Shown: positions 1-43,722 of the stretch, in pieces
How positions within the stretch are numbered: position 1 is the first letter of the stretch
Layout of the letters: each line of letters begins with the position of its first letter
Assembly (NCBI RefSeq): GCF_001443605.1
Contig: NZ_CP013118.1
Location: 124,001-188,000 of the forward strand
DNA: 64,000 nt
Source of the DNA: Salinivirga cyanobacteriivorans
Lineage (GTDB): Bacteria; Bacteroidota; Bacteroidia; Bacteroidales; Salinivirgaceae
Direction of reading: 5' to 3'
Translations under genes and position numbers: made by a program
The notes under the pieces: generated by a model
What the model was told of the DNA's origin: nothing
What the model saw: only the letters and a program-made list of their open reading frames with translations
The model's database searches: none

Positions 1-673
1 GGTTTATCATCTTTTTTATTCTTGGCATGCCACGGCCCAGCCGCTTTTTGTGGAACAAATAAGGGCCTTCGATTTCATCGCTCAACGCTTTTCTTTCGGT
101 CAAAAGATATTCGTGCAACGGTAGTATTTGAAAGGGCTTTAGCGCTAATATCCTTTTGTTGGTCCTTTTGGTGGAAGGTACATAAATTTGGCCTTTGCCC
201 AGTTGCAAATGGTTGATCTCCAGCTTTACCAGTTCACAGGTTTGTAAGCCCTGGTAAATTTTCAACCCTAAAATGATGTGATAGGTTTTCAACGTGTTTT
301 CGTGCGTCCAGTGGTTGCGGCTTTCAGGGAACTTTTGGTATATTTCATCGAGCTGCTTTTGGGTAAATAAATCGTGCGGTACCGTGCGCTGTACGCCTTT
401 TAATCGGACGTTTTCTGCAACGTTGGGCAGGCCTTTAAATTCCAAGTAATAGCCGATTTTTTTTAACTCTAAATTGATGGTTTTTGCCTGTATGCTTTGG
501 CCTTTTCGATAGCGGATGTACTGCATTAACTGCTCATTATCAAAACTTTCAGCTGAAAGAGATAGTTCATGCAAATAAAGTTTAAACTTCTTTTCAATGA
601 AAGAACCATAATCACCGGCCGTGCTTATGGCAAAGCCTTTTTCAACCAGGTATTGTTTAAAATATTGATCCAT
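1..673 (-). CDS. Tyrosine recombinase, second of a pair (3' end outside window)
   Basis: This is a phage-integrase-type recombinase whose C-terminal end lies left of position 1. The start is the ATG at 671-673, which overlaps the end of the upstream recombinase by 17 bases, so the two are probably translationally coupled. The visible part holds the N-terminal SAM-like DNA-binding domain and the first half of the catalytic domain. At the box I position, where active enzymes have Arg, this copy reads QGLQTCEL, so the first catalytic arginine appears to be Gln. It closely matches the complete copy at 54583-55446, which has the same substitution. It may therefore be an accessory subunit to the intact neighbour rather than an independent enzyme; that role is inference. 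Confidence 0.85.
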   Translation of the reverse strand, partial: MDQYFKQYLVEKGFAISTAGDYGSFIEKKFKLYLHELSLSAESFDNEQLMQYIRYRKGQSIQAKTINLELKKIGYYLEFKGLPNVAENVRLKGVQRTVPHDLFTQKQLDEIYQKFPESRNHWTHENTLKTYHIILGLKIYQGLQTCELVKLEINHLQLGKGQIYVPSTKRTNKRILALKPFQILPLHEYLLTERKALSDEIEGPYLFHKKRLGRGMPRIKKMIN

Positions 674-1583
674 TGACCAAATGCGTATATTTCTGTGTTG
701 ACTCTATTGATTTATGACCAAGGAATAAAGCAATGTTTTCTAACCGCATGCCCTCCTGTAAAAGGTGTGTAGCAATAGAGTGCCGTAAAATGTGCAGGCC
801 AAAGGTTTTCTGTTTTAGTTTTTCGTCGCTTGTTTGGTTTTTTAGCAACTGCAACCGGTTGTACATGCCCTGCTGGCTCCACCGGGTCCCGCGACGGCCC
901 AAAAGCAGGGCTTCGTTTTTTTGTCCGTTCAAAAGTTCATCCCGTTGGTTGAAAATGTATTCCTGCAGGCCGGATTTTACCTGCTTGTTCATAGGAACAT
1001 ACCGCTGCCTGTAACCTTTTCCTTGTCGAACATAAAGCAAGTCTTTCTCAAAAAGTAGGTCGCTGATATTCAGGGCTGCACCTTCGCTTGCCCGTAACCC
1101 GCAACCGTAATAAATCCCGAGCATGGCTGTGTCTCTTTGGCTGTATAAATTATCCTGGTCTTTTGCAGCTTTGTACAAGGCTTTTATCTCTGCTTTGCTT
1201 AAATATGTAGCGGTTTCACAGGTTTTAAGCAGTTCGGGTTTAATGGCGATGTTGGCCGTGCCTGTGAGTTGAAGGAACTTGCTCAAAAGTCGCAGCGTGG
1301 TAATGTGTTTGTTGATGTAACCTGCACTCAGGCTGCCCGATCGGTTGCAGTTGGGGCGGTGTTGCAGATACTCCAGGTAGCTTTTTATTTGCCCGGCTTT
1401 AAAGTTTCGTAAATGACGGGTTTGGTTTTGCTCCAAAAACGATAAAAATTCCTTTGTGTTCCAATAACCGAGCTTTACCGTATGTGGGTTGTAGTTCAGT
1501 GTTTCCAACCACCTTCGGAAGTTTTCGGATATAAACACGAACTGTTTACTTTTAATTTCCCTATTAACACTTTTTTGGAACAT
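657..1583 (-). CDS. Tyrosine recombinase/integrase, first of a pair
   Basis: This 308-residue XerC/D-like site-specific recombinase retains every catalytic landmark: Arg in CGLRASEG (about residue 162), the HILRH box (His264, Arg267), His290 in LGHKS and the nucleophile Tyr299 in QKYTHL. The N-terminal half has the core-binding fold typical of phage integrases. It sits 39 bases downstream of the primase on the same strand and overlaps the second recombinase, so the three genes look like one transcription unit. Its near-identical twin is at 55430-56356. Between the primase end and this start lies a set of GGAACGCC/GGCGTTCC repeats that could be a binding or crossover site. Family assignment is firm; the recombination site is not known. 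Confidence 0.9.
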   Translation of the reverse strand: MFQKSVNREIKSKQFVFISENFRRWLETLNYNPHTVKLGYWNTKEFLSFLEQNQTRHLRNFKAGQIKSYLEYLQHRPNCNRSGSLSAGYINKHITTLRLLSKFLQLTGTANIAIKPELLKTCETATYLSKAEIKALYKAAKDQDNLYSQRDTAMLGIYYGCGLRASEGAALNISDLLFEKDLLYVRQGKGYRQRYVPMNKQVKSGLQEYIFNQRDELLNGQKNEALLLGRRGTRWSQQGMYNRLQLLKNQTSDEKLKQKTFGLHILRHSIATHLLQEGMRLENIALFLGHKSIESTQKYTHLVNGSIF

Positions 1584-4259: not shown

Positions 4260-4414
4260 GGGAAAAAAAGTTTAAAATTATTTTTTAGTACCAATTGGTG
4301 ACAAATATAATATATTAGTTCTAAACAAACAAAACTTTTATGATTTGATTAATACAGATAAGTGCCGTATTTTTGTGCCTTACTGACTTTTATGGGTATT
4401 TAAAGCACTTATTT
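4260..4414. promoter_or_regulatory. Divergent control region of primase copy 1 and XRE1
   Basis: A perfect palindrome ACCAATTGGT lies at 4290-4299, about 30 bases upstream of the primase start. For XRE1 a Bacteroidota-type promoter is visible: TTTG at 4344-4347, 20 bases of spacing and TATTTTTG at 4368-4375, about 40 bases before the ATG at 4415. The palindrome is absent from the other XRE classes, so it is the likely operator of XRE1 (inference). Confidence 0.6.
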
Positions 4415-4750
4415 ATGACATTTGGAGAGCGTATTATATCATTAAGAAAAAAGTTAAAATGGTCTCAAGACGAACTAGCGAAAAAGATTGGTACTTCTGC
4501 TCCTATTATTGGAAGGTACGAACGCAACGAGATAAAGCCATCTATTGAGACGGCCAAAAACATTGCTGATTCGCTTAATGTTACTTTAGATTATTTGCTA
4601 GGAGGGTCTAATAGTGCCGTTTTAGACAAAGAGCTTTTAAAACGGCTTGAAGATATTGAAAGCCTTTCGCAAGAGGACAAGGACAAGATTTACTACTTCA
4701 TCGACATGGCTATCAGGGATGCAAAAGCAAGACAGGCTTATAAAGAATAA
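4415..4750 (+). CDS. XRE-family regulator 1
   Basis: This 111-residue repressor-like protein has an N-terminal helix-turn-helix of Cro/C1 type, from about residue 5 to 60 (SQDELAKKIGTSAPIIGRYE). A C-terminal helical tail ends in IRDAKARQAYKE. The frame is open further upstream to 4373, but the ATG at 4415 aligns with the starts of the five other copies and lies at a proper distance from the promoter, so it is preferred. It faces the primase and probably controls it and itself. The 3' end is a recurring joint: sequence after the CAGGCTTAT of the last codons differs completely from copy to copy. Confidence 0.88.
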   Translation: MTFGERIISLRKKLKWSQDELAKKIGTSAPIIGRYERNEIKPSIETAKNIADSLNVTLDYLLGGSNSAVLDKELLKRLEDIESLSQEDKDKIYYFIDMAIRDAKARQAYKE

Positions 4751-4793: not shown

Positions 4794-5339
4794 CTATTCT
4801 GACCCTTTATTCTTTCCCGACAAAAATTTACGCAAAAATCCCTTCTCCTGAGCTATATCCGCAGAATATTTCCTCAGATAAAGTATCGCTCCTACGGTCA
4901 CAAGTATGCCCATAATCAGAAAAGTCCAAGCCATCCAATAAGGTGGTTTGTATTTCAGTATAACCTTACCATTAACCGAAAGCTGTTCAATATACATTTC
5001 ATTCTTTTCAGTCCATACTGTTACTGAATTTTCAATTAAATCCTTCCCATTAAAGTATTTAACAAGTAAGTCTTTATGCTTACCTAAATCTGAATAAAAT
5101 TCTTTATCAGTTTGAATTTCAACATAAAAAAGTTCTCTTTTTGTATCTGGATAAGCCTCTGATTTTTCTATCACTTCTTTAACACCATAATTTTTAATCA
5201 CCCCGCCAAACCTCTCAAGACCAACAGGATTAGGAGATATGGTAATAAAAAGATAAATTCCAGCAATAAAAGACCCTATTCCAAAAGGAAAGCCTGAGAA
5301 GATAGTCCAATAATAAGTATACTTTTCAGGTACTCCCAT
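4794..5339 (-). CDS. Presumed immunity protein, two membrane segments (cassette 1)
   Basis: This 181-residue protein has a hydrophobic segment near residues 8-32 and another near 133-153, with a soluble domain of about 100 residues between them. The layout suggests an inner-membrane protein with a periplasmic domain. It lies directly after the toxin tip at 5351-7237 and is a homologue of 36359-36868, which follows a homologous tip. Tip and membrane protein therefore travel together, the expected pattern for toxin and immunity. A membrane immunity protein would fit a membrane-acting toxin. No named family is recognised. Confidence 0.65.
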   Translation of the reverse strand: MGVPEKYTYYWTIFSGFPFGIGSFIAGIYLFITISPNPVGLERFGGVIKNYGVKEVIEKSEAYPDTKRELFYVEIQTDKEFYSDLGKHKDLLVKYFNGKDLIENSVTVWTEKNEMYIEQLSVNGKVILKYKPPYWMAWTFLIMGILVTVGAILYLRKYSADIAQEKGFLRKFLSGKNKGSE

Positions 5340-5350
5340 AATAACACGAT

Positions 5351-7237
5351 TTATCTGAATGAATTGATTTTATTTTGCAGTAATTGAAATTCTTCCGGAT
5401 ATGCTGATTCAAAGCTGTCTTTATCGTTTTCATCAACATTGTCCCATGCCTGCACTAAATTAGTTATCGCTGATAAATACTCATCGTGAGCAAAATCACT
5501 ATAAATAACTCCAACATCTATCACTTTGCTTACAGTGCCATATATATCCATAAATTCTACTCCGAGCTTATTTTTTGCAAATGCCCTAATGTCATCATCT
5601 TTTAGAAATCGGTCTGTCACTGTTTTTGTCAACAGGAATCCATTCCACAGCATCCGCATATAGCTCCCCGCATTTATTGCCCTAGACAATGATGCTGCCG
5701 GAAAATAAAATGTTGCAATAGTGAGCGCAAACTCAACAAATGCTTCTTCTGCTTCTTCTTCTGCGGTTTCAATCAACCATGCAAGATAAACTCCGGGCAT
5801 TGCCACAGTATGGTCTTCAATTCCGATATGCTCATTCTTTACCTCAAAATATACACTTACGGTTTCAAACGGATCTAACTCAAATGAGTTAAATTGGGGG
5901 CCAAGTAAGGTGCTTCTTTGAACATTAACAATAAAATCACCATTATCTTCAAATAAAACCCTATAAGTGGCAATATAAGCATTGCTCCTAAAATCCATCA
6001 TGGCTTCCCAGTTGTCTATCTCGTTTAAATTATAATCCGTTATATTGCCTAATGGATTCCAAACAAAAAAGTTTTCCTTTTCAACATCTTTTCCTTCTGC
6101 TATAATATTTTCACTATTTTGTAAGCAATAAAGGTGCGTAACGCCTATTGCAATATTTTTAAAATTATCGGAAGATATATCATTAAGTGACCCAAATAAC
6201 TCCTGGTGAAGTGAGCTTTCATCTTTTAGCCATGAATATAGAGATGTTGCGGTTTCTTGGCTGGTCACGCTACGCATTAATTTACGTAGTGCGTTATATT
6301 TTTTAGTATTCAAACCGCTATTTGTTATAACTAACACCCGATTTTGTATATTATCTGAACTTAAAGCGTTTTCTAACCAGGCTTCAGGAATATACTTTAT
6401 AAAACTTACTAACTTGTCAATATTATTTGTTTGCTCTATTTTTTCTATATACCATTCCTTCATTGCAACTTCATCTTGTGTAGTATTTATTACATTCTTT
6501 AGCAACATATCTACACTTGGCACAATTGATTCACTTACAATTTCATCTATTGCCTCTTGTCGCAGATTGATTTCCAAATTTCTAAGTTCGCATAAACTCA
6601 AACCTTTTAATGCTTCAATGGAGAGTTCGCTAACATTAGCATACTCAATATTATCATTAAAAAGAGATTTACAATATTCATAGGCATCTGTGGCGGTAGG
6701 AGAATTATAATTCAAGGGTTCTATAATTATAGTAGAAGAATTACCTGTTAACTTTATTTGTTTTTCAGAATCACTACTTTCAATATCAGTACTGAAATAA
6801 TCGCTTGCATATCCACTCAAAGGCATTTCTCCATTAAAATCAATCGTTAATATTTCATAACCGTAATCTACATTAGGTTTATTAAGGCTATCCAATAATG
6901 TATTAAGACGAATGACATATTGAGACTTTCCCCAATAAAGGAATACTTGTTCTTCATCCTCATTACGTGCACATTGTACATTTTTAATGGCTCGTGCTAA
7001 TACAACTGCTTTATCTTCTATGACAACCTCCCCCTCTTCCACATCCTCAAAAATATGCCACCCACCTTCGGGGTTGTGGATCAGGTCCCATTGGTATTTC
7101 CAAAGTTCGGTGCCGGTTGAATAATCCATAAGATTATCTGTTTCTCCCTGAGGCAAAGTAAAGGAATTTTCTTCGGAAAACGTGTGGCGTAAATTAAAAA
7201 CTCCGTGGCCAAGTTTCCCGATTCTCGGGACAGGCAA
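5351..7237 (-). CDS. Polymorphic-toxin C-terminal tip, cassette 1 (5' end frameshifted)
   Basis: The frame begins with the tail of a zinc metallopeptidase domain (GVFNLRHTF, then the Met-turn-like NLMDYS, then the FEDVEEGE boundary near residue 70). A long variable region of about 550 residues follows. Its C-terminal third has a hydrophobic helical stretch (VEFALTIATFYFPAASL) and is homologous to the tip at 36865-38865. Upstream, a 20-base palindromic insertion at 7216-7235 shifts the frame inside the HExxH motif, so the first codons here (MPVPRIGK) are translated repeat. I see no native start, and the piece is probably a silent donor cassette. A membrane-directed toxin is suggested only by the partner protein. 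Confidence 0.6.
   Translation of the reverse strand: MPVPRIGKLGHGVFNLRHTFSEENSFTLPQGETDNLMDYSTGTELWKYQWDLIHNPEGGWHIFEDVEEGEVVIEDKAVVLARAIKNVQCARNEDEEQVFLYWGKSQYVIRLNTLLDSLNKPNVDYGYEILTIDFNGEMPLSGYASDYFSTDIESSDSEKQIKLTGNSSTIIIEPLNYNSPTATDAYEYCKSLFNDNIEYANVSELSIEALKGLSLCELRNLEINLRQEAIDEIVSESIVPSVDMLLKNVINTTQDEVAMKEWYIEKIEQTNNIDKLVSFIKYIPEAWLENALSSDNIQNRVLVITNSGLNTKKYNALRKLMRSVTSQETATSLYSWLKDESSLHQELFGSLNDISSDNFKNIAIGVTHLYCLQNSENIIAEGKDVEKENFFVWNPLGNITDYNLNEIDNWEAMMDFRSNAYIATYRVLFEDNGDFIVNVQRSTLLGPQFNSFELDPFETVSVYFEVKNEHIGIEDHTVAMPGVYLAWLIETAEEEAEEAFVEFALTIATFYFPAASLSRAINAGSYMRMLWNGFLLTKTVTDRFLKDDDIRAFAKNKLGVEFMDIYGTVSKVIDVGVIYSDFAHDEYLSAITNLVQAWDNVDENDKDSFESAYPEEFQLLQNKINSFR
7216..7235. repeat. 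Short palindromic insertion in HExxH motif
   Basis: The insertion reads TCCCGATTCTCGGGACAGGC, a small hairpin with a 3' CAGGC tail. Compared with the intact arm (38581-38610) it adds a net 20 bases between the codons of His and Glu in HELGH, shifting the frame. Identical copies sit at the same codon at 25977, 29030 and 48652. A longer-loop relative occurs at 53900 and 63042. Confidence 0.8.
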
Positions 7238-7593: not shown

Positions 7594-7847
7594 TCAGTGC
7601 AATAGAGATTTATTGTTCTTTTATATTCTTTGCCTTGATGCAAAGAACCAAAAATCAAGACCAAATTACGCTTCAGCCCGCTCTGTTCAAAGAATTAAAT
7701 GACCAATAAAAGCTGAACAAGCCTCTTTTATGTCATTCATATCCTTTGAACATTCACTCCAACGCTGGCTCGCAAATTTGGTCTGGCCTGCCCGCAAAAA
7801 GTTTTTTAGTGTATTACTAACTTTTTATTGTAGCTTTTTGACCGGCC
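7594..7847. repeat. 254-bp structured repeat S, copy 1
   Basis: The same 254-bp block occurs at 38953-39206 and 49030-49283, each time between a metallopeptidase fragment and an XRE 3' remnant. It contains a small hairpin CTTTGC/GCAAAG at 7628-7647 and a long imperfect dyad: arm 7659-7703 (beginning GACCAAATT) pairs with 7732-7783 (ending AAATTTGGTC), with an inner stem ATAAAAG/CTTTTAT. No convincing ORF is seen. It could be a folded recombination substrate or a structured RNA. Confidence 0.7.
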
Positions 7848-7961
7848 ATGATGCAACGCCTGAACGATATTGCCACCTTCCGGGAAAAAGACCGCGAACA
7901 CATTCTCTACACCCTCGATGCGATGATCCGCGACGTTAAGATAAGGCAGGCTTATTCGTAA
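7848..7961 (+). pseudogene. XRE regulator 3' remnant, copy 1
   Basis: This 37-codon frame encodes MMQRLNDIATFREKDREHIL and ends DAMIRDVKIRQAYS. It matches the last 40 residues of the XRE proteins (for example KRLEDIESLSQEDKDK...IRDAKARQAYKE). A stop codon lies 9 bases upstream of the first ATG and no helix-turn-helix precedes it, so it is a truncated end and not a small gene. The presumed immunity gene of cassette 2 follows in the opposite orientation, repeating the XRE-end/cassette joint seen at complete XRE genes. Confidence 0.75.
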
Positions 7962-10090: not shown

Positions 10091-10817
10091 ATCCTCAAAG
10101 ATATGCCAGCCGCCTTCGGGATTATGGATATAGTCCCATTGGTATTTCCAAGTGAACGGAAAAATTGAATGTCAATGATGCTTTTATACAGGCTTTTATC
10201 AAAGAACGTCGTGCTATAAACACACTTTCAAATATATAAAAATCGGCCATGCTTTTTCTTTCAATTGAAAAGTTCAATTGAAGAAAAAAGACCACAGGTT
10301 TATTTTTTAAAAGAAAAACAAAAAAAAGAAAGCCATACCGCAAGGTAAGGCGGAAAGGGCTGTCAAGGCTGACGGCAAAAGAGTTTTACCGGAAAAAATC
10401 CATTTATTAAAACTGTTTTGCCGGAACTTGTCTTGGCCTTTACTGCCCTTGTAGCCGACTTAAATTGGGTTTCCTTTTTTTGCTTTCCGGCAGTCAAAAA
10501 CTGCGTTGTTTCAAGTCGCTAACCTGCTGAACAATGGTAACTTGTGCGTAAGGAAAAAGTGCCTACAGCAAGCGGTGGGAAAGCGGATGCAATAAGTGAA
10601 GTGAGGAACGAACGAAACGGGTTGCAGACGCTGTGCAGCGATAGCGAGCCGCCTGCGAGTGCGGCCGAGGCCTGCCGGGTAAAAGCCGACCTTAGAAGGC
10701 TGAGCGGCAGTGTGTAAATTGCAAATTTAAAATGTACAAATTTTCGCAAAAGTAAATGTACAGTTTTTGATTTATCTTTTTCATTGATTATTTGTGTTTG
10801 TTTTATGTAACAACGGA

Positions 10818-11631: not shown

Positions 11632-11633
11632 GG

Positions 11634-13675: not shown

Positions 13676-14347
13676 TTACAACTCCTGCCATCCTTTAAAA
13701 TCTTTAAATTCTTCAAAGGCCGATTCCCATATCTCAGAGGCTTCCTGTGCCCGGGTTTGTGGTATGAGTTCGTAGTTCTGCAGTTGACGGTAGCCTTTGC
13801 CGTTTTTCCGGATTAGATTTAATTCCCGTAAGCCTTGTAAAATGCGATTGCAACTGGTTTTTGATTTTCCGGTAAGTGCTTGTAAATCCCTCCAATTGAA
13901 AGAAGAAGATAAACCGATTTCATCAAACAAGATTTGATAATAATTTCTTATATTGCCCGATATATCAAGCTTTTGGGCTGTAAACAATGGACTGATCAAC
14001 ATTAAAGCTGTTGCATAATCTTCTCTTTGGCTGATGTAATTTCCCTCGCTGTCTTTTTGCCTGTAGAGCTTATTGATTACCGTTAATGAGTGTACCAGTG
14101 ATTCATAAAGTATGCGTACATCGTTCTGTAAAATGGTGCTGCTTTCTATTTCTGTGGTTGGGTCGTGTACTGTTGTTGCCCTTGGGAACAGGTTCTTTAA
14201 GGCGATTACTAAGCTTGTTATTTTTAGGTATCTGCATTCCATTGTTTTTTCAATATCTCTATTAACACTTTTCGTGGGACGCGGGACGCAAAGGGTTTTT
14301 TCCAGTAATGACGCAGGTTCTATCGTCCCATTTGGCGTTCCACCCAC
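13676..14347 (-). CDS. Winged-helix protein resembling the primase C-terminus, copy 1
   Basis: The 223-codon frame opens at a GTG inside the GGCGTTCC dyad. A better start is the ATG at 14240-14242, giving about 188 residues (MECRYLKITSL...). Residues 100-205 align by eye with the primase C-terminal region: INKLYRQKDSEGNYISQREDYATAL parallels its IHQYQRKRDDRGRI...EDLKTAV stretch, and DLQALTGKSKTSCNRILQGL is the same type of winged helix. It takes the place that the recombinases occupy in the outer elements. It may be a primase fragment captured by recombination or a small accessory replication protein. Copies at 20391, 32586 and 43020 encode the identical sequence. Confidence 0.65.
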   Translation of the reverse strand: MGGTPNGTIEPASLLEKTLCVPRPTKSVNRDIEKTMECRYLKITSLVIALKNLFPRATTVHDPTTEIESSTILQNDVRILYESLVHSLTVINKLYRQKDSEGNYISQREDYATALMLISPLFTAQKLDISGNIRNYYQILFDEIGLSSSFNWRDLQALTGKSKTSCNRILQGLRELNLIRKNGKGYRQLQNYELIPQTRAQEASEIWESAFEEFKDFKGWQEL

Positions 14348-14359
14348 TTTGGGACGCTA
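14333..14359. repeat. GGCGTTCC-type dyad, inner-element variant
   Basis: TGGCGTTCC and GGGACGCTA flank a 9-base spacer, and a tandem GGGACGC GGGACGC lies at about 14276-14290. The same arrangement recurs beside each 223-codon ORF. Sequence on one side is primase in all copies, while on the other it is either recombinase or winged-helix ORF. Confidence 0.5.
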
Positions 14360-14378
14360 GATATTTACCGGCTTAATT

Positions 14379-16940
14379 TTAGAGCTTATCTAATTGATTG
14401 TTAAGATATTCTTTAATCTGCTCACGCAACTTTACAACATTGTCCCAATACGATACTTTATAACGTAATCCCTTATTTTGATAACCACCTGTAACCGAAA
14501 GATATTCTAACTCTAAAAGATTGTTTAAATATCGGTGTGTAGCCGATTTACTAAGGTTTAGACTATGCCGGATTTCCCGTTGCATGAATTCATAGTTTTG
14601 CGGGTTTTCTTTTGCCAAAACGTAGGCTTTTAGCTGCTCAAAGAACTGCCGCAATGAACCGTCCAACTCGTCGACTTTCAAAAAAATACTGTCGAACATG
14701 ATCTCTACGGCTATTTTCAGGTCTTCGGGGTCGGTGATTATTCTGCCCCGGTCATCTCGCTTTCGTTGGTATTGGTGGATCAATGCCACTTGCTTTACGA
14801 AGCTTAAAAACAGTTCGTGCAAACGCCGTATTTTGTGGGCTTGGGGTGGCAGTTTTATCTTGTCGGCATAGGGGTTGATTACTTTCAACGGTTTTAACAT
14901 GCGGATGCTGTTTTGCAAAAATTCCTTTGCTTCAACTTCCAGCTTTTTTTCTATCGTTCCGCTGGCGGTTTTGCTTTGGTAGTTCATGATCTTTTGGGTT
15001 TGCTCGCTGCTTTCATCAACGGCCACAATAAACATACAGCTCATGTTGTCTTCATAAATTTGTCCGTGCGTGGTGGCGCATATCGAAGCCATCGGGCCAC
15101 GAACAATACGCTGTGCGCTGCGTATGTTTCCGTTTTCGTCCTTTTGACTGGTGGAGCTGCTGAGTTGTTCGTTGCTGATCAGCTCGCGCCAGGCAAACAA
15201 GGCTTCTTCTTTCAGTCCGTCGATGTCTTCCAAACAAACCAGTTTCCCTTGAAAATAATATTCATCGTAGTTGTAAAAGCTGTTTTCCGTAACACGGGTA
15301 AATTTCACCACTCGTTCACTTGGCATCAGTGCGGCTATTTTACTCAAAAGGTGCGTCTTGCCGCTGCCCGAGCTGCCTTGTATTAAAGCATGTAGCGTAT
15401 CTTTCATTTTATGGCTCGTACCGATAATAAACAAAAACAAACGGTTGTTTTCTTCGCCCACGATGCCGCTTTGGCCGATCAATTCGTTTAGGTTTTGTAT
15501 TAAATCTTCTTTCTGCAGAAAGGCTTTGCATTTGGCTTGTTCCGGCAACCTTAAAGCTTTGTCGTTTGAGTTTTCTTCGGTGATTTGTTGCAGTTGATTA
15601 TCTCTGTATTCTTCCAGTAAATCGGTTAGTTCTGATAAGTCGTTTTCTACCAAATCGCTGCGTAAGTCCAGTTTCTCGCTTGCTTCTCTTGCTTCTTTCC
15701 TTGTTTGCTTTTCTTCGTATAAATCTAATCGGCAGCGGTATTTTATGGCGGTTTCCAAATGCTGCACGTCCAAACTCACCAGCATTCTGTCAAAAGTTTT
15801 CGGTAAAGTGCCTTTGATAATGTAACGGGCGGTGGGGGTTTGGTGGATTATCTTGTTGGGAAGATCTGTTTTTAACCGTTGAGACGCAATGCATTGCGTC
15901 TGTACTTCTATAGGGATATTTATTTGATTGCCAGATGATTGATTAGATTCTGGATTGGCAGGCTGCCGTTCTTCGATGAGTTGCAATATGGCTTCTTTGC
16001 CATAAGTTATGAACATACTGTTTACGTCTTCGCCATCGGGCGTTGGCACGGCTGTAATCTTGCATTTTAGGTGCTGTAGTTTTTCGGTGCTTTTAATTAT
16101 ACCTTCTTTTCCGGCTATATCACCATCAAAAAAGAAAATAATTTCTTGTAAGTTTTTTAATTGTTTTATTGCTTCGATATGCTCTGCAGTAAGTCCATTA
16201 GTACCATAGGCGGTTAATACGGAGATGCCTTTCATTGCTAATTGCTCATTATTAATTACTAATTGGAGACTGGCACAGTCGATAATAGCCTCGGTGATGA
16301 TTAACGTTTCTGTATTTGCATCCGGACAACCCGGGTAAAGTCCTTTGCGGTTTTCGGTGTAGTAGTGTTTGCCAAATTCTGCGTTATAACCATTGCTTTC
16401 TGTTATTCTCCTGCCGTACAGGCTTACAATGTTTCCGCTTTTGTCTTTCAATGGGAACGTAATGCACTGTTTGAGCTTTTTCCAGTTTACTCCTGAGTTA
16501 TAGCCAACTTCTTGTAATTGTTCCAGCCCACGGTTTTTGAGATACTCCTGTGCTTTATGGCTGCGTGGGAGGCCGTCTTTTTGCCTGTTAAATAGTTCGG
16601 CAAAGTTTTCGGCCTCCTTCACGCTAGCCTTACCTGAAGAAATCCCCATAACTTCAGTATTTTGGTTGTTTTCTGTTGTGCCGCCATTGGCCAGTTCCGT
16701 GGCTATTTTCAGGGCAGCGTGTTTGTTGCAATTCTCTTTGTCCTGGATAAACTGTATCACATCGCCGGTTTTTCTGCAGCCAAAGCAGTTGTAAGTGTTA
16801 GTGTCTGTATAAATCTTGCAGCTTGGCTTATCGTCCTTATGGAACGGGCATATAATATGATCATTCTTATTCATTTTAATGCCGTAATGCGCCAAAACAC
16901 TCATTATAGGTAGCCGTTTTTTGATGTCGGGGATTTGCAT
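14379..16940 (-). CDS. CHC2/Toprim/AAA+ primase-helicase, copy 2
   Basis: This 853-residue homologue of copy 1 has the full domain order, but the last zinc-finger loop reads CFGCRKTGD. The C-terminus ends in EYLNNQLDKL without the GTPDGTPG tail, and the winged helix is the inner-type variant (QREIRHSLNLSKSATHRYL). The Toprim insertion differs from copy 1: here it reads VINNEQLAMKG, from an AT-rich small repeat. In the linker the perfect palindrome GACGCAATGCATTGCGTC (15883-15900) is translated within TQCIASQ. It is divergent from XRE2 and lies 31 bases upstream of the winged-helix ORF. Confidence 0.87.
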   Translation of the reverse strand: MQIPDIKKRLPIMSVLAHYGIKMNKNDHIICPFHKDDKPSCKIYTDTNTYNCFGCRKTGDVIQFIQDKENCNKHAALKIATELANGGTTENNQNTEVMGISSGKASVKEAENFAELFNRQKDGLPRSHKAQEYLKNRGLEQLQEVGYNSGVNWKKLKQCITFPLKDKSGNIVSLYGRRITESNGYNAEFGKHYYTENRKGLYPGCPDANTETLIITEAIIDCASLQLVINNEQLAMKGISVLTAYGTNGLTAEHIEAIKQLKNLQEIIFFFDGDIAGKEGIIKSTEKLQHLKCKITAVPTPDGEDVNSMFITYGKEAILQLIEERQPANPESNQSSGNQINIPIEVQTQCIASQRLKTDLPNKIIHQTPTARYIIKGTLPKTFDRMLVSLDVQHLETAIKYRCRLDLYEEKQTRKEAREASEKLDLRSDLVENDLSELTDLLEEYRDNQLQQITEENSNDKALRLPEQAKCKAFLQKEDLIQNLNELIGQSGIVGEENNRLFLFIIGTSHKMKDTLHALIQGSSGSGKTHLLSKIAALMPSERVVKFTRVTENSFYNYDEYYFQGKLVCLEDIDGLKEEALFAWRELISNEQLSSSTSQKDENGNIRSAQRIVRGPMASICATTHGQIYEDNMSCMFIVAVDESSEQTQKIMNYQSKTASGTIEKKLEVEAKEFLQNSIRMLKPLKVINPYADKIKLPPQAHKIRRLHELFLSFVKQVALIHQYQRKRDDRGRIITDPEDLKIAVEIMFDSIFLKVDELDGSLRQFFEQLKAYVLAKENPQNYEFMQREIRHSLNLSKSATHRYLNNLLELEYLSVTGGYQNKGLRYKVSYWDNVVKLREQIKEYLNNQLDKL

Positions 16941-17103
16941 TTAAAAAAAAAGTTTAAAATTATTCCTGTCTCATATTTGTCTCAAAAGTATGATATTTGA
17001 GACTAATACGCAAGACTTATTCGAGTTTTTTATTAAAACTTTTTCTTATTTTTGTTGAATAACGCACAAATAAAGGTTTTAAACACGCAAAACAATCCCG
17101 ATT
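16941..17103. promoter_or_regulatory. Divergent control region, class 2 operator
   Basis: GTCTCAAA at 16979-16986 and TTTGAGAC at 16996-17003 form an inverted repeat with 9-base spacing, preceded by another GTCTCA at 16968. A TATTTTTG -7 element for XRE2 lies near 17054-17061. The layout is repeated at 23698-23860 for XRE3. Confidence 0.6.
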
Positions 17104-17439
17104 ATGACCATCGCAGAGCGCATTAAAATAATCCGACAACAGAAAAACATATCACAAAGTGAACTTGCTAAGGCTGCTGATATTAATGTAAAAAGTCTTT
17201 CACGTTATGAGATTGGAACGAGTATTCCTCCAGCAAATGCATTGAAAGCTATTGCTGATGCACTGGGAGTTTCTGCAGATGTTCTACTGAGTGACGACAA
17301 TACTCAAATTAAGGACAAGGAACTATTAAAAAAATTTGAAATTATTCAGGAAATGAATGGAGAGGCTAAAAAGATGATTATAAACTTTCTTGATTTAGCT
17401 ATCCGAGATTATAAAACCAAACAAACTTATACTTCTTAA
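17104..17439 (+). CDS. XRE-family regulator 2
   Basis: The 111-residue protein has its Cro/C1-type helix-turn-helix at residues 5-60 (SQSELAKAADINVKSLSRYE) and a tail ending IRDYKTKQTYTS. It differs from XRE3 by one residue (AKKM versus AVKM) and has the same operator sequence. After the stop, 34 bases are shared with the XRE3 locus (17440-17473) before the two diverge abruptly, which marks the edge of the exchanged cassette. It probably represses the divergent primase. Confidence 0.88.
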   Translation: MTIAERIKIIRQQKNISQSELAKAADINVKSLSRYEIGTSIPPANALKAIADALGVSADVLLSDDNTQIKDKELLKKFEIIQEMNGEAKKMIINFLDLAIRDYKTKQTYTS

Positions 17440-20390: not shown

Positions 20391-21062
20391 TTACAACTCC
20401 TGCCATCCTTTAAAATCTTTAAATTCTTCAAAGGCCGATTCCCATATCTCAGAGGCTTCCTGTGCCCGGGTTTGTGGTATGAGTTCGTAGTTCTGCAGTT
20501 GACGGTAGCCTTTGCCGTTTTTCCGGATTAGATTTAATTCCCGTAAGCCTTGTAAAATGCGATTGCAACTGGTTTTTGATTTTCCGGTAAGTGCTTGTAA
20601 ATCCCTCCAATTGAAAGAAGAAGATAAACCGATTTCATCAAACAAGATTTGATAATAATTTCTTATATTGCCCGATATATCAAGCTTTTGGGCTGTAAAC
20701 AATGGACTGATCAACATTAAAGCTGTTGCATAATCTTCTCTTTGGCTGATGTAATTTCCCTCGCTGTCTTTTTGCCTGTAGAGCTTATTGATTACCGTTA
20801 ATGAGTGTACCAGTGATTCATAAAGTATGCGTACATCGTTCTGTAAAATGGTGCTGCTTTCTATTTCTGTGGTTGGGTCGTGTACTGTTGTTGCCCTTGG
20901 GAACAGGTTCTTTAAGGCGATTACTAAGCTTGTTATTTTTAGGTATCTGCATTCCATTGTTTTTTCAATATCTCTATTAACACTTTTCGTGGGACGCGGG
21001 ACGCAAAGGGTTTTTTCCAGTAATGACGCAGGTTCTATCGTCCCATTTGGCGTTCCACCCAC
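20391..21062 (-). CDS. Winged-helix protein resembling the primase C-terminus, copy 2
   Basis: The translation is identical to the copy at 13676-14347, with the same alternative ATG start 105 bases inside the frame. Complete identity between copies about 6.7 kb apart points to recent duplication or gene conversion. It is followed by repeat R and preceded by a primase in the same orientation. Confidence 0.65.
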   Translation of the reverse strand: MGGTPNGTIEPASLLEKTLCVPRPTKSVNRDIEKTMECRYLKITSLVIALKNLFPRATTVHDPTTEIESSTILQNDVRILYESLVHSLTVINKLYRQKDSEGNYISQREDYATALMLISPLFTAQKLDISGNIRNYYQILFDEIGLSSSFNWRDLQALTGKSKTSCNRILQGLRELNLIRKNGKGYRQLQNYELIPQTRAQEASEIWESAFEEFKDFKGWQEL

Positions 21063-21093
21063 TTTGGGACGCTAGATATTTACCGGCTTAATT

Positions 21094-23697
21094 TTAGAGC
21101 TTATCTAATTGATTGTTAAGATATTCTTTAATCTGCTCACGCAACTTTACAACATTGTCCCAATACGATACTTTATAACGTAATCCCTTATTTTGATAAC
21201 CACCTGTAACCGAAAGATATTCTAACTCTAAAAGATTGTTTAAATATCGGTGTGTAGCCGATTTACTAAGGTTTAGACTATGCCGGATTTCCCGTTGCAT
21301 GAATTCATAGTTTTGCGGGTTTTCTTTTGCCAAAACATACGCCTTCAGCTGCTCAAAGAACTGCCGCAATGAGCCGTCCAACTCGTCCACTTTCAAAAAA
21401 ATACTGTCGAACATGATCTCTACGGCTGTTTTCAGGTCTTCGGGTTCGGTGATAATTCTGCCCCGGTCATCTCGCTTGCGCTGGTATTGGTGGATTAAGG
21501 TCACTTGTTTTACAAAACTCAAAAACAGTTCGTGTAAACGCCTTATTTTATGGGCTTGCGGTGGTAGTTTTATCTTGTCGGCATAGGGGTTGATTACTTT
21601 CAGCGGCTTTAACATGCGGATGCTGTTTTGCAAAAATTCCTTTGCTTCAACTTCCAGCTTTTTTTCTATCGTTCCGCTGGCGGTTTTGCTTTGGTAGTTC
21701 ATGATCTTTTGGGTTTGCTCGCTGCTTTCATCAACGGCCACAATAAACATACGGCTCATGTTGTCTTCATAAATTTGTCCGTGCGTGGTGGCGCATATCG
21801 AAGCCATCGGGCCGCGAACAATACGCTGTGCGCTGCGGATGTTGCCGTTCTCGTCCTTTTGACTGGTAGAGCTGCTGAGCTGTTCGTTGCTGATCAGCTC
21901 GCGCCAGGCAAACAAGGCTTCTTCTTTCAGCCCGTCGATGTCTTCCAAACAAACCAGTTTCCCTTGAAAATAATATTCATCGTAGTTGTAAAAACTGTTT
22001 TCCGTAACACGGGTAAATTTCACTACTCGTTCATCGGGCATTAAAGCGGCTATTTTGCTCAAAAGGTGCGTTTTTCCGCTGCCCGAACTGCCTTGTATCA
22101 GCGCATGCAGCGTGCCGGGCATTTTGTGGCTCGTGCCAATAATGAACAAAAACAATCGGTTGTTCTCTTCGCCTACGATGCCCGATTGGCCGATCAAATC
22201 GTTAAGATGTTCTATCAAGTTTTGTTTTTTCAGGAACGCTTTACACTTCGCTTGTTCCGGTAAGCTTAAAGCTTTGTCGTTTGAGTTTTCTTCGGTGGTT
22301 TGTTGCAGTTGATTATCTCTGTATTCTTCCAGTAAATCGGTTAGTTCTGATAAGTCGCTTTCCACCAAATCGCTGCGCAAATCCAGTTTCTCGCTTGCTT
22401 CTCTTGCTTCTTTCCTTGTTTGCTTTTCTTCGTATAAATCTAATCGGCAGCGGTATTTTATGGCGGTTTCCAAATGCTGCACGTCCAAACTCACCAGCAT
22501 TCTATCAAAAGTTTTCGGTAGGCTGCCTTTGATGATGTAACGGGCGGTGGGGGTTTCGAAAATTATTTTATTTGGGGTATTAGTGTTTAATGGTGACAGG
22601 CCGTTGGTTTCTTGTACTTCTTCGGGTGTAATGGCCTTATTGTTAAATTGTTGTATTGTTATATTGTTAGGTGATTTGGGAGTTTTGAGGTTTACAGGTT
22701 GCCGTTCTTCGATTAATTGCAGTATTGCTTCCTTGCCATAAGTCACGAACATACTATTTACATCCTCGCCATCAGGTGTTGGCACGCTTGTTACTTCAAC
22801 TCTGCTCAGTAACCTTTGAACGTTTTCTGTATTTTTTATTACGCCTTCACGTCCAGCATTGTCTCCATCAAAGAAAAAGATTACTTCTTGCTTCTCGACT
22901 CCGCTCGAAGACCATTCTGCAATGGCTGCTTTGTGTTCGGCGGTTAGGCCGTTGGTGCCGTAGGCGCTTAGTATGGAGACGCTCTGTAGAGCGTCTTTAC
23001 ATTGCAGCAGTGAAGCTGCATCTATGATGGCCTCGGTGATGATCAGGGTTTCGGTTTTTTGTACTGGACCGTGTCCGCCTACTGGCGGATAGCCCGGATA
23101 AAGCCCTTTGCGGTTTTCGGTATAGTAGTGTTTGCCAAATTCTACGTTATAACCATTGCTCTCGATGATTCTTCTACCGTACAGACTTACGATGTTTCCG
23201 TTTTTGTCTTTCAATGGGAACGTAATGCACTGTTTGAGATTTTTCCAGTTTACTCCTGAGTTATAGCCAACTTCTTGTAATTCTTCTAAGCAGCGGTTTC
23301 TCAAATATTCTTGTGCTTTGGGGCTGCGTGGGAGGCCTTCTTTTTGCCTGTTAAATAGTTCGGCAAAGTTTTCGGCCTCCGCAGCCCGCTTGGATGCAAT
23401 CCCCATTACATCGGTATTTTGGGTATTTTTTGTTGCGTTGCCATTGGCCAGTTCTGTGGCCTTTTTTAAAGCTGTGTGCTTATCGCAATTTTCTTTGTCC
23501 TGGATAAATTGTATTACATCGCCGGTTTTACCACAGCCAAAGCAGTTGTAAGTGTTAGTGTCTGTATAAATCTTGCAGCTGGGCTTGTCGTCCTTGTGGA
23601 ACGGGCATATAATATGATCATTCTTATTCATTTTAATGCCGTAATGCGCCAAAACACTCATTATAGGCAGCCGTTTTTTGATGTCGGGGATTTGCAT
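21094..23697 (-). CDS. CHC2/Toprim/AAA+ primase-helicase, copy 3
   Basis: The 867-residue protein is a chimera. Its linker and Toprim part (KDALQSVSILSAYG, LKTPKSPNNITIQQF) follow copy 1, while the C-terminal half, winged helix and short tail follow the inner type. It has a unique in-frame insertion YPPVGGHGPVQK before the Toprim strand, encoded by the palindrome at 23074-23089. CHC2 ligands (CPFH and CFGC), the TEAIIDA glutamate, Walker A and Walker B are all present. The mosaic suggests recombination between copies within the gene. Confidence 0.87.
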   Translation of the reverse strand: MQIPDIKKRLPIMSVLAHYGIKMNKNDHIICPFHKDDKPSCKIYTDTNTYNCFGCGKTGDVIQFIQDKENCDKHTALKKATELANGNATKNTQNTDVMGIASKRAAEAENFAELFNRQKEGLPRSPKAQEYLRNRCLEELQEVGYNSGVNWKNLKQCITFPLKDKNGNIVSLYGRRIIESNGYNVEFGKHYYTENRKGLYPGYPPVGGHGPVQKTETLIITEAIIDAASLLQCKDALQSVSILSAYGTNGLTAEHKAAIAEWSSSGVEKQEVIFFFDGDNAGREGVIKNTENVQRLLSRVEVTSVPTPDGEDVNSMFVTYGKEAILQLIEERQPVNLKTPKSPNNITIQQFNNKAITPEEVQETNGLSPLNTNTPNKIIFETPTARYIIKGSLPKTFDRMLVSLDVQHLETAIKYRCRLDLYEEKQTRKEAREASEKLDLRSDLVESDLSELTDLLEEYRDNQLQQTTEENSNDKALSLPEQAKCKAFLKKQNLIEHLNDLIGQSGIVGEENNRLFLFIIGTSHKMPGTLHALIQGSSGSGKTHLLSKIAALMPDERVVKFTRVTENSFYNYDEYYFQGKLVCLEDIDGLKEEALFAWRELISNEQLSSSTSQKDENGNIRSAQRIVRGPMASICATTHGQIYEDNMSRMFIVAVDESSEQTQKIMNYQSKTASGTIEKKLEVEAKEFLQNSIRMLKPLKVINPYADKIKLPPQAHKIRRLHELFLSFVKQVTLIHQYQRKRDDRGRIITEPEDLKTAVEIMFDSIFLKVDELDGSLRQFFEQLKAYVLAKENPQNYEFMQREIRHSLNLSKSATHRYLNNLLELEYLSVTGGYQNKGLRYKVSYWDNVVKLREQIKEYLNNQLDKL
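23074..23089. repeat. In-frame palindromic insertion in primase copy 3
   Basis: TCCGCCTACTGGCGGA is a hairpin element related to the TCCGCCAGCTGGCGGA found in repeat R (about 32427, 42858, 53758, 62899). With its flanks it adds about 8 residues compared with the other primases, without breaking the frame. Confidence 0.65.
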
Positions 23698-23860
23698 TTA
23701 AAAAAAAAGTTTAAAATTATTCCTGTCTCATATTTGTCTCAAAAGTATGATATTTGAGACTAATACGCAAGACTTATTCGAGTTTTTTATTAAAACTTTT
23801 TCTTATTTTTGTTGAATAACGCACAAATAAAGGTTTTAAACACGCAAAACAATCCCGATT
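23698..23860. promoter_or_regulatory. Divergent control region, class 2 operator (second copy)
   Basis: GTCTCAAA at 23736-23743 and TTTGAGAC at 23753-23760 repeat the arrangement upstream of XRE2 base for base. The TATTTTTG element for XRE3 is near 23811. Confidence 0.6.
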
Positions 23861-24196
23861 ATGACCATCGCAGAGCGCATTAAAATAATCCGACAACAGA
23901 AAAACATATCACAAAGTGAACTTGCTAAGGCTGCTGATATTAATGTAAAAAGTCTTTCACGTTATGAGATTGGAACGAGTATTCCTCCAGCAAATGCATT
24001 GAAAGCTATTGCTGATGCACTGGGAGTTTCTGCAGATGTTCTACTGAGTGACGACAATACTCAAATTAAGGACAAGGAACTATTAAAAAAATTTGAAATT
24101 ATTCAGGAAATGAATGGAGAGGCTGTAAAGATGATTATAAACTTTCTTGATTTAGCTATCCGAGATTATAAAACCAAACAAACTTATACTTCTTAA
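23861..24196 (+). CDS. XRE-family regulator 3
   Basis: This 111-residue protein is a near-duplicate of XRE2 with a single Lys-to-Val difference near residue 90. The helix-turn-helix is intact. Because XRE2 and XRE3 share operators, each should be able to act on both primase promoters, unlike the other classes. The sequence shared after the stop ends at 24230, where the immunity gene region of the tandem cassettes begins. Confidence 0.88.
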   Translation: MTIAERIKIIRQQKNISQSELAKAADINVKSLSRYEIGTSIPPANALKAIADALGVSADVLLSDDNTQIKDKELLKKFEIIQEMNGEAVKMIINFLDLAIRDYKTKQTYTS

Positions 24197-32585: not shown

Positions 32586-33257
32586 TTACAACTCCTGCCA
32601 TCCTTTAAAATCTTTAAATTCTTCAAAGGCCGATTCCCATATCTCAGAGGCTTCCTGTGCCCGGGTTTGTGGTATGAGTTCGTAGTTCTGCAGTTGACGG
32701 TAGCCTTTGCCGTTTTTCCGGATTAGATTTAATTCCCGTAAGCCTTGTAAAATGCGATTGCAACTGGTTTTTGATTTTCCGGTAAGTGCTTGTAAATCCC
32801 TCCAATTGAAAGAAGAAGATAAACCGATTTCATCAAACAAGATTTGATAATAATTTCTTATATTGCCCGATATATCAAGCTTTTGGGCTGTAAACAATGG
32901 ACTGATCAACATTAAAGCTGTTGCATAATCTTCTCTTTGGCTGATGTAATTTCCCTCGCTGTCTTTTTGCCTGTAGAGCTTATTGATTACCGTTAATGAG
33001 TGTACCAGTGATTCATAAAGTATGCGTACATCGTTCTGTAAAATGGTGCTGCTTTCTATTTCTGTGGTTGGGTCGTGTACTGTTGTTGCCCTTGGGAACA
33101 GGTTCTTTAAGGCGATTACTAAGCTTGTTATTTTTAGGTATCTGCATTCCATTGTTTTTTCAATATCTCTATTAACACTTTTCGTGGGACGCGGGACGCA
33201 AAGGGTTTTTTCCAGTAATGACGCAGGTTCTATCGTCCCATTTGGCGTTCCACCCAC
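32586..33257 (-). CDS. Winged-helix protein resembling the primase C-terminus, copy 3
   Basis: The protein is identical to the copies at 13676 and 20391. The primase that precedes it is again the inner type. The frame start in the dyad is doubtful; the ATG 105 bases in is preferred. Confidence 0.65.
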   Translation of the reverse strand: MGGTPNGTIEPASLLEKTLCVPRPTKSVNRDIEKTMECRYLKITSLVIALKNLFPRATTVHDPTTEIESSTILQNDVRILYESLVHSLTVINKLYRQKDSEGNYISQREDYATALMLISPLFTAQKLDISGNIRNYYQILFDEIGLSSSFNWRDLQALTGKSKTSCNRILQGLRELNLIRKNGKGYRQLQNYELIPQTRAQEASEIWESAFEEFKDFKGWQEL

Positions 33258-33288
33258 TTTGGGACGCTAGATATTTACCGGCTTAATT

Positions 33289-35850
33289 TTAGAGCTTATC
33301 TAATTGATTGTTAAGATATTCTTTAATCTGCTCACGCAACTTTACAACATTGTCCCAATACGATACTTTATAACGTAATCCCTTATTTTGATAACCACCT
33401 GTAACCGAAAGATATTCTAACTCTAAAAGATTGTTTAAATATCGGTGTGTAGCCGATTTACTAAGGTTTAGACTATGCCGGATTTCCCGTTGCATGAATT
33501 CATAGTTTTGCGGGTTTTCTTTTGCCAAAACATACGCCTTCAGCTGCTCAAAGAACTGCCGCAATGAGCCGTCCAACTCGTCCACTTTCAAAAAAATACT
33601 GTCGAACATGATCTCTACGGCTGTTTTCAGGTCTTCGGGTTCGGTGATAATTCTGCCCCGGTCATCTCGCTTGCGCTGGTATTGGTGGATTAAGGTCACT
33701 TGTTTTACAAAACTCAAAAACAGTTCGTGTAAACGCCTTATTTTATGGGCTTGGGGTGGGAGTTTTATCTTGTCGGCATAGGGGTTTATTACTTTTAAAG
33801 GCTTTAATATGCGGATGCAGTTTTGCAAAAATTCCTTTGCTTCAACTTCCTGCTTTTTTTCTATCGTTCCGCTGGCGGTTTTGCTTTGGTAGTTCATAAT
33901 CTTTTGTGTTTGCCCGCTGCTTTCATCCACGGCCACAATAAACATACGGCTCATGTTGTCCTCGTAAATTTGTCCGTGCGTAGTGGCGCAGATGCTGGCC
34001 ATTGGACCTCTAACAATTCGTTGAGCACTTCTAATGTTTCCGTTTTCATCCTTTTGACTGGTGGAGCTGCTGAGTTGTTCGTTGCTGATCAGCTCGCGCC
34101 AGGCAAACAAGGCTTCTTCTTTCAGTCCGTCGATGTCTTCCAAACAAACCAGTTTCCCTTGAAAATAATATTCATCGTAGTTGTAAAAACTGTTTTCCGT
34201 AACGCGGGTAAATTTAACCACCCGTTCCGGTGGCATTAGTGCCGCTATCTTGCTCAAAAGGTGCGTCTTTCCGCTGCCCGAACTGCCTTGTATCAGCGCA
34301 TGCAGCGTGCCGGGCATTTTGTGGCTCGTGCCAATAATGAACAAAAACAATCGGTTGTTCTCTTCGCCTACGATGCCCGATTGGCCGATCAAATCGTTAA
34401 GATGTTCTATCAAGTTTTGTTTTTTCAGGAACGCTTTACACTTCGCTTGTTCCGGTAAGCTTAAAGCTTTGTCGTTTGAGTTTTCTTCGGTGGTTTGTTG
34501 CAGTTGATTATCTCTGTATTCTTCCAGTAAATCGGTTAGTTCTGATAAGTCGCTTTCCACCAAATCGCTGCGCAAATCCAGTTTCTCGCTTGCTTCTCTT
34601 GCTTCTTTCCTTGTTTGCTTTTCTTCGTATAAATCTAATCGGCAGCGGTATTTTATGGCGGTTTCCAAATGCTGCACGTCCAAACTCACCAGCATTCTGT
34701 CAAAAGTTTTCGGTAAAGTGCCTTTGATAATGTAACGGGCGGTGGGGGTTTGGTGGATTATCTTGTTGGGAAGATCTGTTTTTAACCGTTGAGACGCAAT
34801 GCATTGCGTCTGTACTTCTATAGGGATATTTATTTGATTGCCAGATGATTGATTAGATTCTGGATTGGCAGGCTGCCGTTCTTCGATGAGTTGCAATATG
34901 GCTTCTTTGCCATAAGTTATGAACATACTGTTTACGTCTTCGCCATCGGGCGTTGGCACGGCTGTAATCTTGCATTTTAGGTGCTGTAGTTTTTCGGTGC
35001 TTTTAATTATACCTTCTTTTCCGGCTATATCACCATCAAAAAAGAAAATAATTTCTTGTAAGTTTTTTAATTGTTTTATTGCTTCGATATGCTCTGCAGT
35101 AAGTCCATTAGTACCATAGGCGGTTAATACGGAGATGCCTTTCATTGCTAATTGCTCATTATTAATTACTAATTGGAGACTGGCACAGTCGATAATAGCC
35201 TCGGTGATGATTAACGTTTCTGTATTTGCATCCGGACAACCCGGGTAAAGTCCTTTGCGGTTTTCGGTGTAGTAGTGTTTGCCAAATTCTGCGTTATAAC
35301 CATTGCTTTCTGTTATTCTCCTGCCGTACAGGCTTACAATGTTTCCGCTTTTGTCTTTCAATGGGAACGTAATGCACTGTTTGAGCTTTTTCCAGTTTAC
35401 TCCTGAGTTATAGCCAACTTCTTGTAATTGTTCCAGCCCACGGTTTTTGAGATACTCCTGTGCTTTATGGCTGCGTGGGAGGCCGTCTTTTTGCCTGTTA
35501 AATAGTTCGGCAAAGTTTTCGGCCTCCTTCACGCTAGCCTTACCTGAAGAAATCCCCATAACTTCAGTATTTTGGTTGTTTTCTGTTGTGCCGCCATTGG
35601 CCAGTTCCGTGGCTATTTTCAGGGCAGCGTGTTTGTTGCAATTCTCTTTGTCCTGGATAAACTGTATCACATCGCCGGTTTTTCTGCAGCCAAAGCAGTT
35701 GTAAGTGTTAGTGTCTGTATAAATCTTGCAGCTGGGTTTGTCGTCCTTATGGAACGGGCATTTGATATGGTCGTTCTTATCGATTTTAATGCCATAATGC
35801 GCCAAAACACTCATTATAGGTAGCCGTTTTTTGATGTCGGGGATTTGCAT
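33289..35850 (-). CDS. CHC2/Toprim/AAA+ primase-helicase, copy 4
   Basis: The 853-residue protein is closest to copy 2 over its first half (CFGCRKTGD finger variant, VINNEQLAMKG Toprim insertion, GACGCAATGCATTGCGTC palindrome at 34793-34810) and to copy 3 around residues 430-500. The first 30 residues switch to KIDKNDHIKCPFH, as expected if the control region and start were exchanged along with the XRE class. All catalytic motifs are present, and it should be functional. Confidence 0.87.
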   Translation of the reverse strand: MQIPDIKKRLPIMSVLAHYGIKIDKNDHIKCPFHKDDKPSCKIYTDTNTYNCFGCRKTGDVIQFIQDKENCNKHAALKIATELANGGTTENNQNTEVMGISSGKASVKEAENFAELFNRQKDGLPRSHKAQEYLKNRGLEQLQEVGYNSGVNWKKLKQCITFPLKDKSGNIVSLYGRRITESNGYNAEFGKHYYTENRKGLYPGCPDANTETLIITEAIIDCASLQLVINNEQLAMKGISVLTAYGTNGLTAEHIEAIKQLKNLQEIIFFFDGDIAGKEGIIKSTEKLQHLKCKITAVPTPDGEDVNSMFITYGKEAILQLIEERQPANPESNQSSGNQINIPIEVQTQCIASQRLKTDLPNKIIHQTPTARYIIKGTLPKTFDRMLVSLDVQHLETAIKYRCRLDLYEEKQTRKEAREASEKLDLRSDLVESDLSELTDLLEEYRDNQLQQTTEENSNDKALSLPEQAKCKAFLKKQNLIEHLNDLIGQSGIVGEENNRLFLFIIGTSHKMPGTLHALIQGSSGSGKTHLLSKIAALMPPERVVKFTRVTENSFYNYDEYYFQGKLVCLEDIDGLKEEALFAWRELISNEQLSSSTSQKDENGNIRSAQRIVRGPMASICATTHGQIYEDNMSRMFIVAVDESSGQTQKIMNYQSKTASGTIEKKQEVEAKEFLQNCIRILKPLKVINPYADKIKLPPQAHKIRRLHELFLSFVKQVTLIHQYQRKRDDRGRIITEPEDLKTAVEIMFDSIFLKVDELDGSLRQFFEQLKAYVLAKENPQNYEFMQREIRHSLNLSKSATHRYLNNLLELEYLSVTGGYQNKGLRYKVSYWDNVVKLREQIKEYLNNQLDKL

Positions 35851-36006
35851 GGAAAAAAAGTTTAAGTTTTATCCTACTGATATATTTATCACAAAACTAT
35901 AATATTTATCAGATAAAAGCAAAGAAAAAATAACTTGTTTGTGATAATTATATCAGTTACTTTTGCAAATACCTTAGTATTTGTATCATTTTACTGATAA
36001 ATAAGC
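35851..36006. promoter_or_regulatory. Divergent control region, class 3 operators
   Basis: Two copies of TGATA-N4-TATCA lie at 35878-35891 and 35942-35955; further TGATAA half-sites are at 35907-35914 and near 35994. The second operator sits directly before a TACTTTTG -7 element (35958-35965) of the XRE4 promoter, an arrangement suited to autorepression. The same set recurs upstream of XRE5. Confidence 0.65.
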
Positions 36007-39206: not shown

Positions 39207-39372
39207 ATGATGCAACGCCTGAACGATATTGCCACCTTCCGGGAAAAAGACCGCGAACACATTCTCTACACCCTCGATGCGATGATCCGCGACGTTAATG
39301 GTTTAGCCCCCTATAAATCGGACAATTTATTTTCAGGTTTCAAAAGTAACCATTTTATTCCATAATATTGCA

Positions 39373-43691: not shown

Positions 43692-43722
43692 TTTGGGACG
43701 CTAGATATTTACCGGCTTAATT

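Follow-up and report, generated by a model that had tools for sequence, protein, structure and literature searches.

A tandem array of candidate integrative elements joined to a polymorphic-toxin coding sequence in Salinivirga cyanobacteriivorans

Integrative elements that insert at the 3′ ends of genes employ a tyrosine recombinase and a short attachment (att) core, and the end of the interrupted gene is restored. For the C-terminal change of polymorphic toxins the main explanation has been homologous recombination via a hypothetical circle, with no integrase known. In the model of Jackson et al (2009; PMC2935791), homologous recombination of circular intermediates displaces the rhs tips, and the authors noted that they knew of no integrase associated with Rhs. 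Recombinase and immunity genes occur together in the rAID clusters, the biogenesis of which is described as unknown (PMC12247911), and in bee gut symbionts the sections available report integrase-like genes near Rhs loci, which were suggested to help the capture or transfer of Rhs sequences (PMC5727410). The text describing the TANFOR toxins of Bacteroidetes mentions neither recombination, integrases, mobile elements nor arrays (PMC7073777). Here we analyse a window of 64,000 nucleotides from the closed 4.81-Mb genome of Salinivirga cyanobacteriivorans (contig NZ_CP013118.1, hereafter C1; window C1:124001-188000), which quite probably belongs to a tandem array of integrative elements targeting the coding sequence of a polymorphic toxin by site-specific recombination.

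The array spans ~215 kb, from about 95 to 312 kb on C1 (region read, C1:60001-340000), and contains 18 elements alternating with 32 toxin tails downstream of a single full-length gene for a putative secreted TANFOR-like toxin. This gene (C1:306764-311590, 1608 aa) lies at the high end of the array and encodes fn3, a HELGHG region, a short core and then the tail; upstream of it, a gene encodes a large protein that has SprB repeats and a type IX sorting domain. On the minus strand the order of each unit is toxin tail, predicted immunity gene, XRE (on the opposite strand), CHC2/Toprim primase with an AAA region, recombinases or an alternative protein, and an element arm of several hundred bases. 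Two tyrosine recombinases are encoded by 11 of the 18 units, while the other seven carry a 223-aa protein (P223) instead. The tails fall into 28 groups at 90% identity, and that of the main gene begins with a sequence seen again within the array at C1:195120. Toxin function is presumed for the tails, and the neighbouring genes are predicted to confer immunity from their position.

The base-exact joint of these units is on the toxin side, not at the XRE end. When the tail starts were aligned, a 19-bp core, TTGGAAATACCAATGGGAC (codons WKYQWD), was found to open all 32 tails; its 32 copies are all exact, on one strand and within the array, and no variant with 1-2 mismatches is present in the 4.81-Mb genome. 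Upstream of the core lies toxin-gene sequence in 14 of the 32 cases and element arm in 18, and similarity between the two classes stops abruptly at the core. Every arm-type core adjoins an element backbone (18/18) and no toxin-type core does (0/14), so that arms and backbones correspond one to one, and the core bounds both ends of all 18 units as direct repeats. Between arm joints and toxin gene the shared sequence is only ~14-20 bp long and lies at a single position in 18/18; crossovers within a long homologous core of variable length were not found in this genome, where all arm joints fall at the one 19-bp core. Within the core the four degenerate codons (K, Y, Q and D) are spelled identically in all 32 copies. 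Just downstream, where the frame continues, codons do vary synonymously, giving 26 distinct 60-nt haplotypes. Taken alone this contrast is modest evidence (P about 0.018), and the abrupt two-sided joint is the stronger. The elements and cores of the window are as follows.

1..673 (C1:123813-124673), minus strand: INT2, the second recombinase-like protein, truncated at the window edge
657..1583, minus strand: INT, an XerC-like tyrosine recombinase with a full set of catalytic residues
1623..4259, minus strand: primase PRIM, CHC2/Toprim with AAA and helix-turn-helix regions; paralogue at 14379-16940
4373..4750, plus strand: putative XRE repressor, divergent from PRIM; RstR repressor family match for its paralogue at 17104
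4794..7103, minus strand: cargo, consisting of the toxin tail after the core and a predicted immunity gene (4794-5339), functions proposed from position
7085..7103, minus strand: 19-bp core TTGGAAATACCAATGGGAC preceded by toxin-gene sequence (MPT type)
25846, 28899, 38464, 48521: starts of the other MPT-type cores
10133..10151, minus strand: 19-bp core with element arm upstream (ARM type)
19373, 31556, 42049, 52954, 62061: starts of the other ARM-type cores
54583..59514: complete backbone, with INT2 (54583-55446, minus), INT (55430-56356, minus), PRIM (56396-59026, minus) and XRE (59179-59514, plus)
13676..17439: recombinase-less unit, with P223 (13676-14347, minus), PRIM (14379-16940, minus) and XRE (17104-17439, plus)
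20391..24196: recombinase-less unit, with P223 (20391-21062), PRIM (21094-23697, minus) and XRE (23861-24196, plus)
32586..36339: recombinase-less unit, with P223 (32586-33257), PRIM (33289-35850, minus) and XRE (36007-36339, plus)
43020..46770: recombinase-less unit, with P223 (43020-43691), PRIM (frame broken near 44790) and XRE (46435-46770, plus)

An IS21-family pair (IstB and transposase, 10873-13208) has inserted into the arm of one element, and further IstB copies lie at C1:98993, 286358 and 299369. Five toxin-type orphan fragments (window 7081-7506; C1:116252, 149798, 152851 and 172473) are frame-broken within the HELGHG region that precedes the core, with homology kept.

INT matches PF00589 (E 8e-36), and its catalytic set R164, K189, H264, R267, H290 and Y299 (R-K-H-R-H-Y) is invariant in 20 homologues. 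INT2 (P0002, C1:301476-302339, and homologues) has no box-I arginine (GLQT) and carries QIR in box II, with the tyrosine kept in 11/11 homologues aligned; from these residues it may be an accessory partner of INT. P223 is identical in the seven units that encode it, bears a weak likeness to a primase C-terminus and occupies the place of both recombinases, which suggests that these units are non-autonomous derivatives. Scores stayed below the cut-offs for the GmtY recombinase of gamma-mobile-trio islands (NF040693, 18.8 bits against 340) and for integron integrases (TIGR02249, 88 bits against 265). Searches of viral and phage collections (IMG/VR, phages) returned only distant XerC-like matches of at most 36% identity, and two plasmid records match INT2 at 26-29%; a phage or plasmid origin was rejected, there being no close family members in the viral, phage or plasmid collections. 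A search against a defence-system library gave nothing specific.

The same joint recurs elsewhere. A scan with INT identified the same locus in Alkaliflexus imshenetskii DSM 15055, comprising an SprB-like protein, a full-length toxin, a small gene, XRE and elements. Its full-length toxin reads '...GGTELWKPQWDLIHNPEKILFSWAQDEEEG' ahead of the tail, and five orphans with unrelated arms are each joined at the same codons, WKPQWD (AACCTCAATGGGA). The TANFOR N-terminal domain matches the Alkaliflexus main toxin weakly (24.5 bits against a cut-off of 67, E 2e-05), and the same profile gave no match to the host toxin protein of the array. Homologues of INT (about 40% identity) were found in 20 of 395 sampled Bacteroidia genomes, almost always within an XRE-primase-INT-INT2 module at the loci with sequence sufficient to check. 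A further 25 Bacteroidota loci show the order Rhs core, tail, XRE, primase, INT, INT2; the Rhs core is upstream in the same orientation in 22 of the 24 loci with upstream sequence, and a displaced second Rhs core follows INT2 in most loci with enough downstream sequence. At G683, for example, the NCBIfam Rhs core TIGR03696 matches both the main and the displaced open reading frames, the latter being a displaced core plus tail. More than one element is present at G683, G450, G459, G277, G034 and G036, with several tandem pairs. Around single-element Rhs loci an exact-repeat search returned only 14-21 bp matches, and the joints were located by protein-guided alignment. Several fall on conserved YYPFG codons (e.g. 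TTATTATCCTTTTGG, CGACTATTACCCGTTTGG), with cores of 14-20 bp, and G079 and G145 have the arm end and core in common.

These observations suggest the following mechanism. The circular form of the element would read core, toxin tail, immunity gene, XRE (reversed), primase/helicase, INT, INT2, arm and core. INT, probably together with INT2, would recombine the element core with a matching short sequence in the last pre-toxin codons of a resident toxin gene, WKYQWD here and often YYPFG in Rhs genes. After insertion the resident gene would run in frame into the tail of the element, followed by the matching immunity gene and the backbone, while the old tail and its immunity gene would be left as an orphan behind the arm of the element; the stack would grow through repeated insertion at the main gene. 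XRE probably represses the primase/recombinase operon. Beyond this genome, it seems fairly likely that the elements represent a phylum-wide, previously undescribed family, in which a tyrosine recombinase inserts the element into the last pre-toxin codons of Rhs/TANFOR-like genes and thereby rearms them with a toxin domain and an immunity gene.

Several observations weigh against this mechanism. INT2 may not be catalytic, given its missing box-I arginine and its QIR, and all 18 arms of the array could descend from one founding insertion that was spread by homologous recombination. The codon of the joint is not the same in every Rhs locus, with G163 and G119 deviating, and at L107 (G326) and L089 (G215) the module has no recognisable Rhs core upstream, such that pre-toxin targets other than Rhs may exist. 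The nearest genomes lack the locus; a search of the host genus, the host family and the genus of G683 yielded no usable ortholog for an empty-site comparison, the congeners of G683 being without a close one.

The initial annotation described three short XRE remnants as left by recurrent cassette joints at XRE 3′ ends. In the window these correspond to the following features.

7594..7847: spacer of 254 bp between remnant 1 and a toxin-gene fragment, holding a dispersed genome repeat (~7650-7795)
7848..7961, plus strand: XRE C-terminal remnant 1, 37 codons, with the same joint in six array copies
39207..40874, plus strand: XRE remnant 2, interrupted by an IS3-family insertion whose transposase gene is at 39373-40236 (minus)
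49284..49403, plus strand: XRE C-terminal remnant 3, 39 codons

The remnants and the cargo genes facing XRE ends proved real, but the remnants are not independent of one another. The match of remnants 1 and 3 to an XRE protein is confined to its C-terminal helix; the one beginning at 39207 is the same remnant, but the IS3-family insertion interrupts it after IRDV and its last ~32 bp reappear at 40843-40874. The remnants are more than 90% alike and, as had been stated, differ in their final codons (QAYS or QAYANK). A predicted cargo gene does lie ~11-133 bp from each of the nine XRE ends, but it is the stop of this minus-strand gene, not its start, that faces the XRE stop, the two genes being convergent. 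Six remnants in the array begin at a common base (MMQRLN...) and each adjoins a 254-bp spacer with 100% identity across 6/6; because of this one identical joint, independent scars were ruled out, and the remnants are copies of one deletion event rather than of repeated cassette exchange. A full-length XRE of the remnant type is present at C1:280361-280702, and the ~146-bp dispersed repeat inside the spacer has about 22 other genome copies, diverged and mostly 81-89% identical. In the deletion a toxin-gene fragment would have become fused to an XRE stub, beside the dispersed repeat, and the product would later have been copied along with the toxin fragment. Outside the window, a chimeric remnant (C1:269521-269586) is preceded by MMQRLNDIAT-like sequence and continues into the end of another XRE.

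Could the XRE 3′ end itself be a site-specific exchange point, with cassettes joining at a CAGGCTTAT-like end, as had been proposed? Near-identical XREs carry different cargo after them, and for four of the seven array XRE types similarity stops 0-9 nt beyond the QA[YF] codon; moreover, different XRE types can share the nucleotides that follow (TCGTAAAA), as though these were part of the cargo. The remaining three types, however, have their breakpoints about +43 to +134 away, and those of other genomes lie about +40 (G450), +67 (G459) and +415 (G683) past the XRE stop. What survives of the proposal is thus a recurrent boundary between backbone and exchanged cargo; the fixed site does not, since breakpoints mapped in the array and in other genomes scatter from 0 to about +415 nt instead of clustering at the last XRE codons. 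The CAGGCTTAT end is conserved as a protein motif, IRDxKxxQA[YF], which is also found in XREs of distant genomes and varies synonymously (CAG/CAA, GCT/A/G/C, TAT/TAC), and therefore is not a fixed DNA core; other XRE clades at the same element position end differently (LKAIQ, KQLS) with the architecture unchanged. Clustering at the first dispensable codon would also be expected from selection against truncating breakpoints. The synonymous variation and the scattered breakpoints ruled out a DNA attachment site at the XRE end, and we regard a specific exchange there as very improbable: the XRE end marks where the element backbone stops and replacement of cargo is tolerated, and cargo could also be swapped there through ordinary recombination. 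Just beyond several XRE stops (e.g. C1:96358, 222231 and 306412) lies a hairpin-like GTCCAAGCG...CGCTTGGACC, perhaps a terminator or a REP-like repeat.

Two further explanations were weighed. If RecA-type displacement in the conserved pre-toxin region acted alone, as in the model of Jackson et al (2009), the XRE, primase and integrase genes would be passengers. Homologous recombination has clearly also reshaped the array, as indicated by its tandem copies, partly alike tails and copied remnant block; its action is shown by near-identical units in tandem and by REM-type units, which have ~370 bp of toxin homology, and the M15-type tail start is found behind arm-type and toxin-type joints alike. 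As the sole process it is nevertheless unlikely, given the shortness and single position of the arm joints, their recurrence, with unrelated arms, in both Alkaliflexus and Rhs genes, and the linkage of each arm to a backbone. Alternatively, the array might be a store for local switching, from which the recombinases shuffle orphan tails into the main gene within the lineage and without import. The return of the main tail start at C1:195120 and the 32 tails stored with their cores would fit such a role; yet the elements carry primase and repressor genes, the primases of the array differ by 0-22% among themselves and distant families have the module too, observations suggesting that the elements spread horizontally. 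We consider local switching improbable as the full explanation, but it is compatible with insertion of integrative elements and the two are not mutually exclusive.

If the integrative-element mechanism is correct, swapping the tail with simultaneous delivery of immunity would let a mobile element rearm its host in one step, and the elements offer a concrete enzyme, site and carrier that make toxin-tail exchange directly testable. No description of such elements was found in the open-access literature; subscription papers lay outside the search, so their novelty is provisional. The target genes probably belong to the class of TANFOR polymorphic toxins of Bacteroidetes (PMC7073777). In rhs C-terminal displacement arrays a full-length toxin gene is likewise followed by a string of displaced tips and a circular intermediate has been proposed, but here a recombinase-bearing element stands between the main gene and the displaced tail and the joint is 14-20 bp (PMC2935791). 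The rAID orphan-immunity clusters of Bacteroidales also place a tyrosine recombinase beside an array of interbacterial immunity genes in Bacteroidota; they hold orphan immunity genes, whereas the elements described here carry a whole tail-immunity cargo, a primase and XRE, with the joint inside the toxin gene (PMC12247911). For the Rhs-associated integrases of bee gut symbionts the available sections describe proximity only, with no joint or element structure (PMC5727410). Like integrative elements at gene 3′ ends, the units of this array combine a tyrosine recombinase, a short core, in-frame continuation of the target gene and tandem accretion. They differ in that the replaced 3′ part is long and would be functional, changing the toxin domain and bringing its immunity gene with it.
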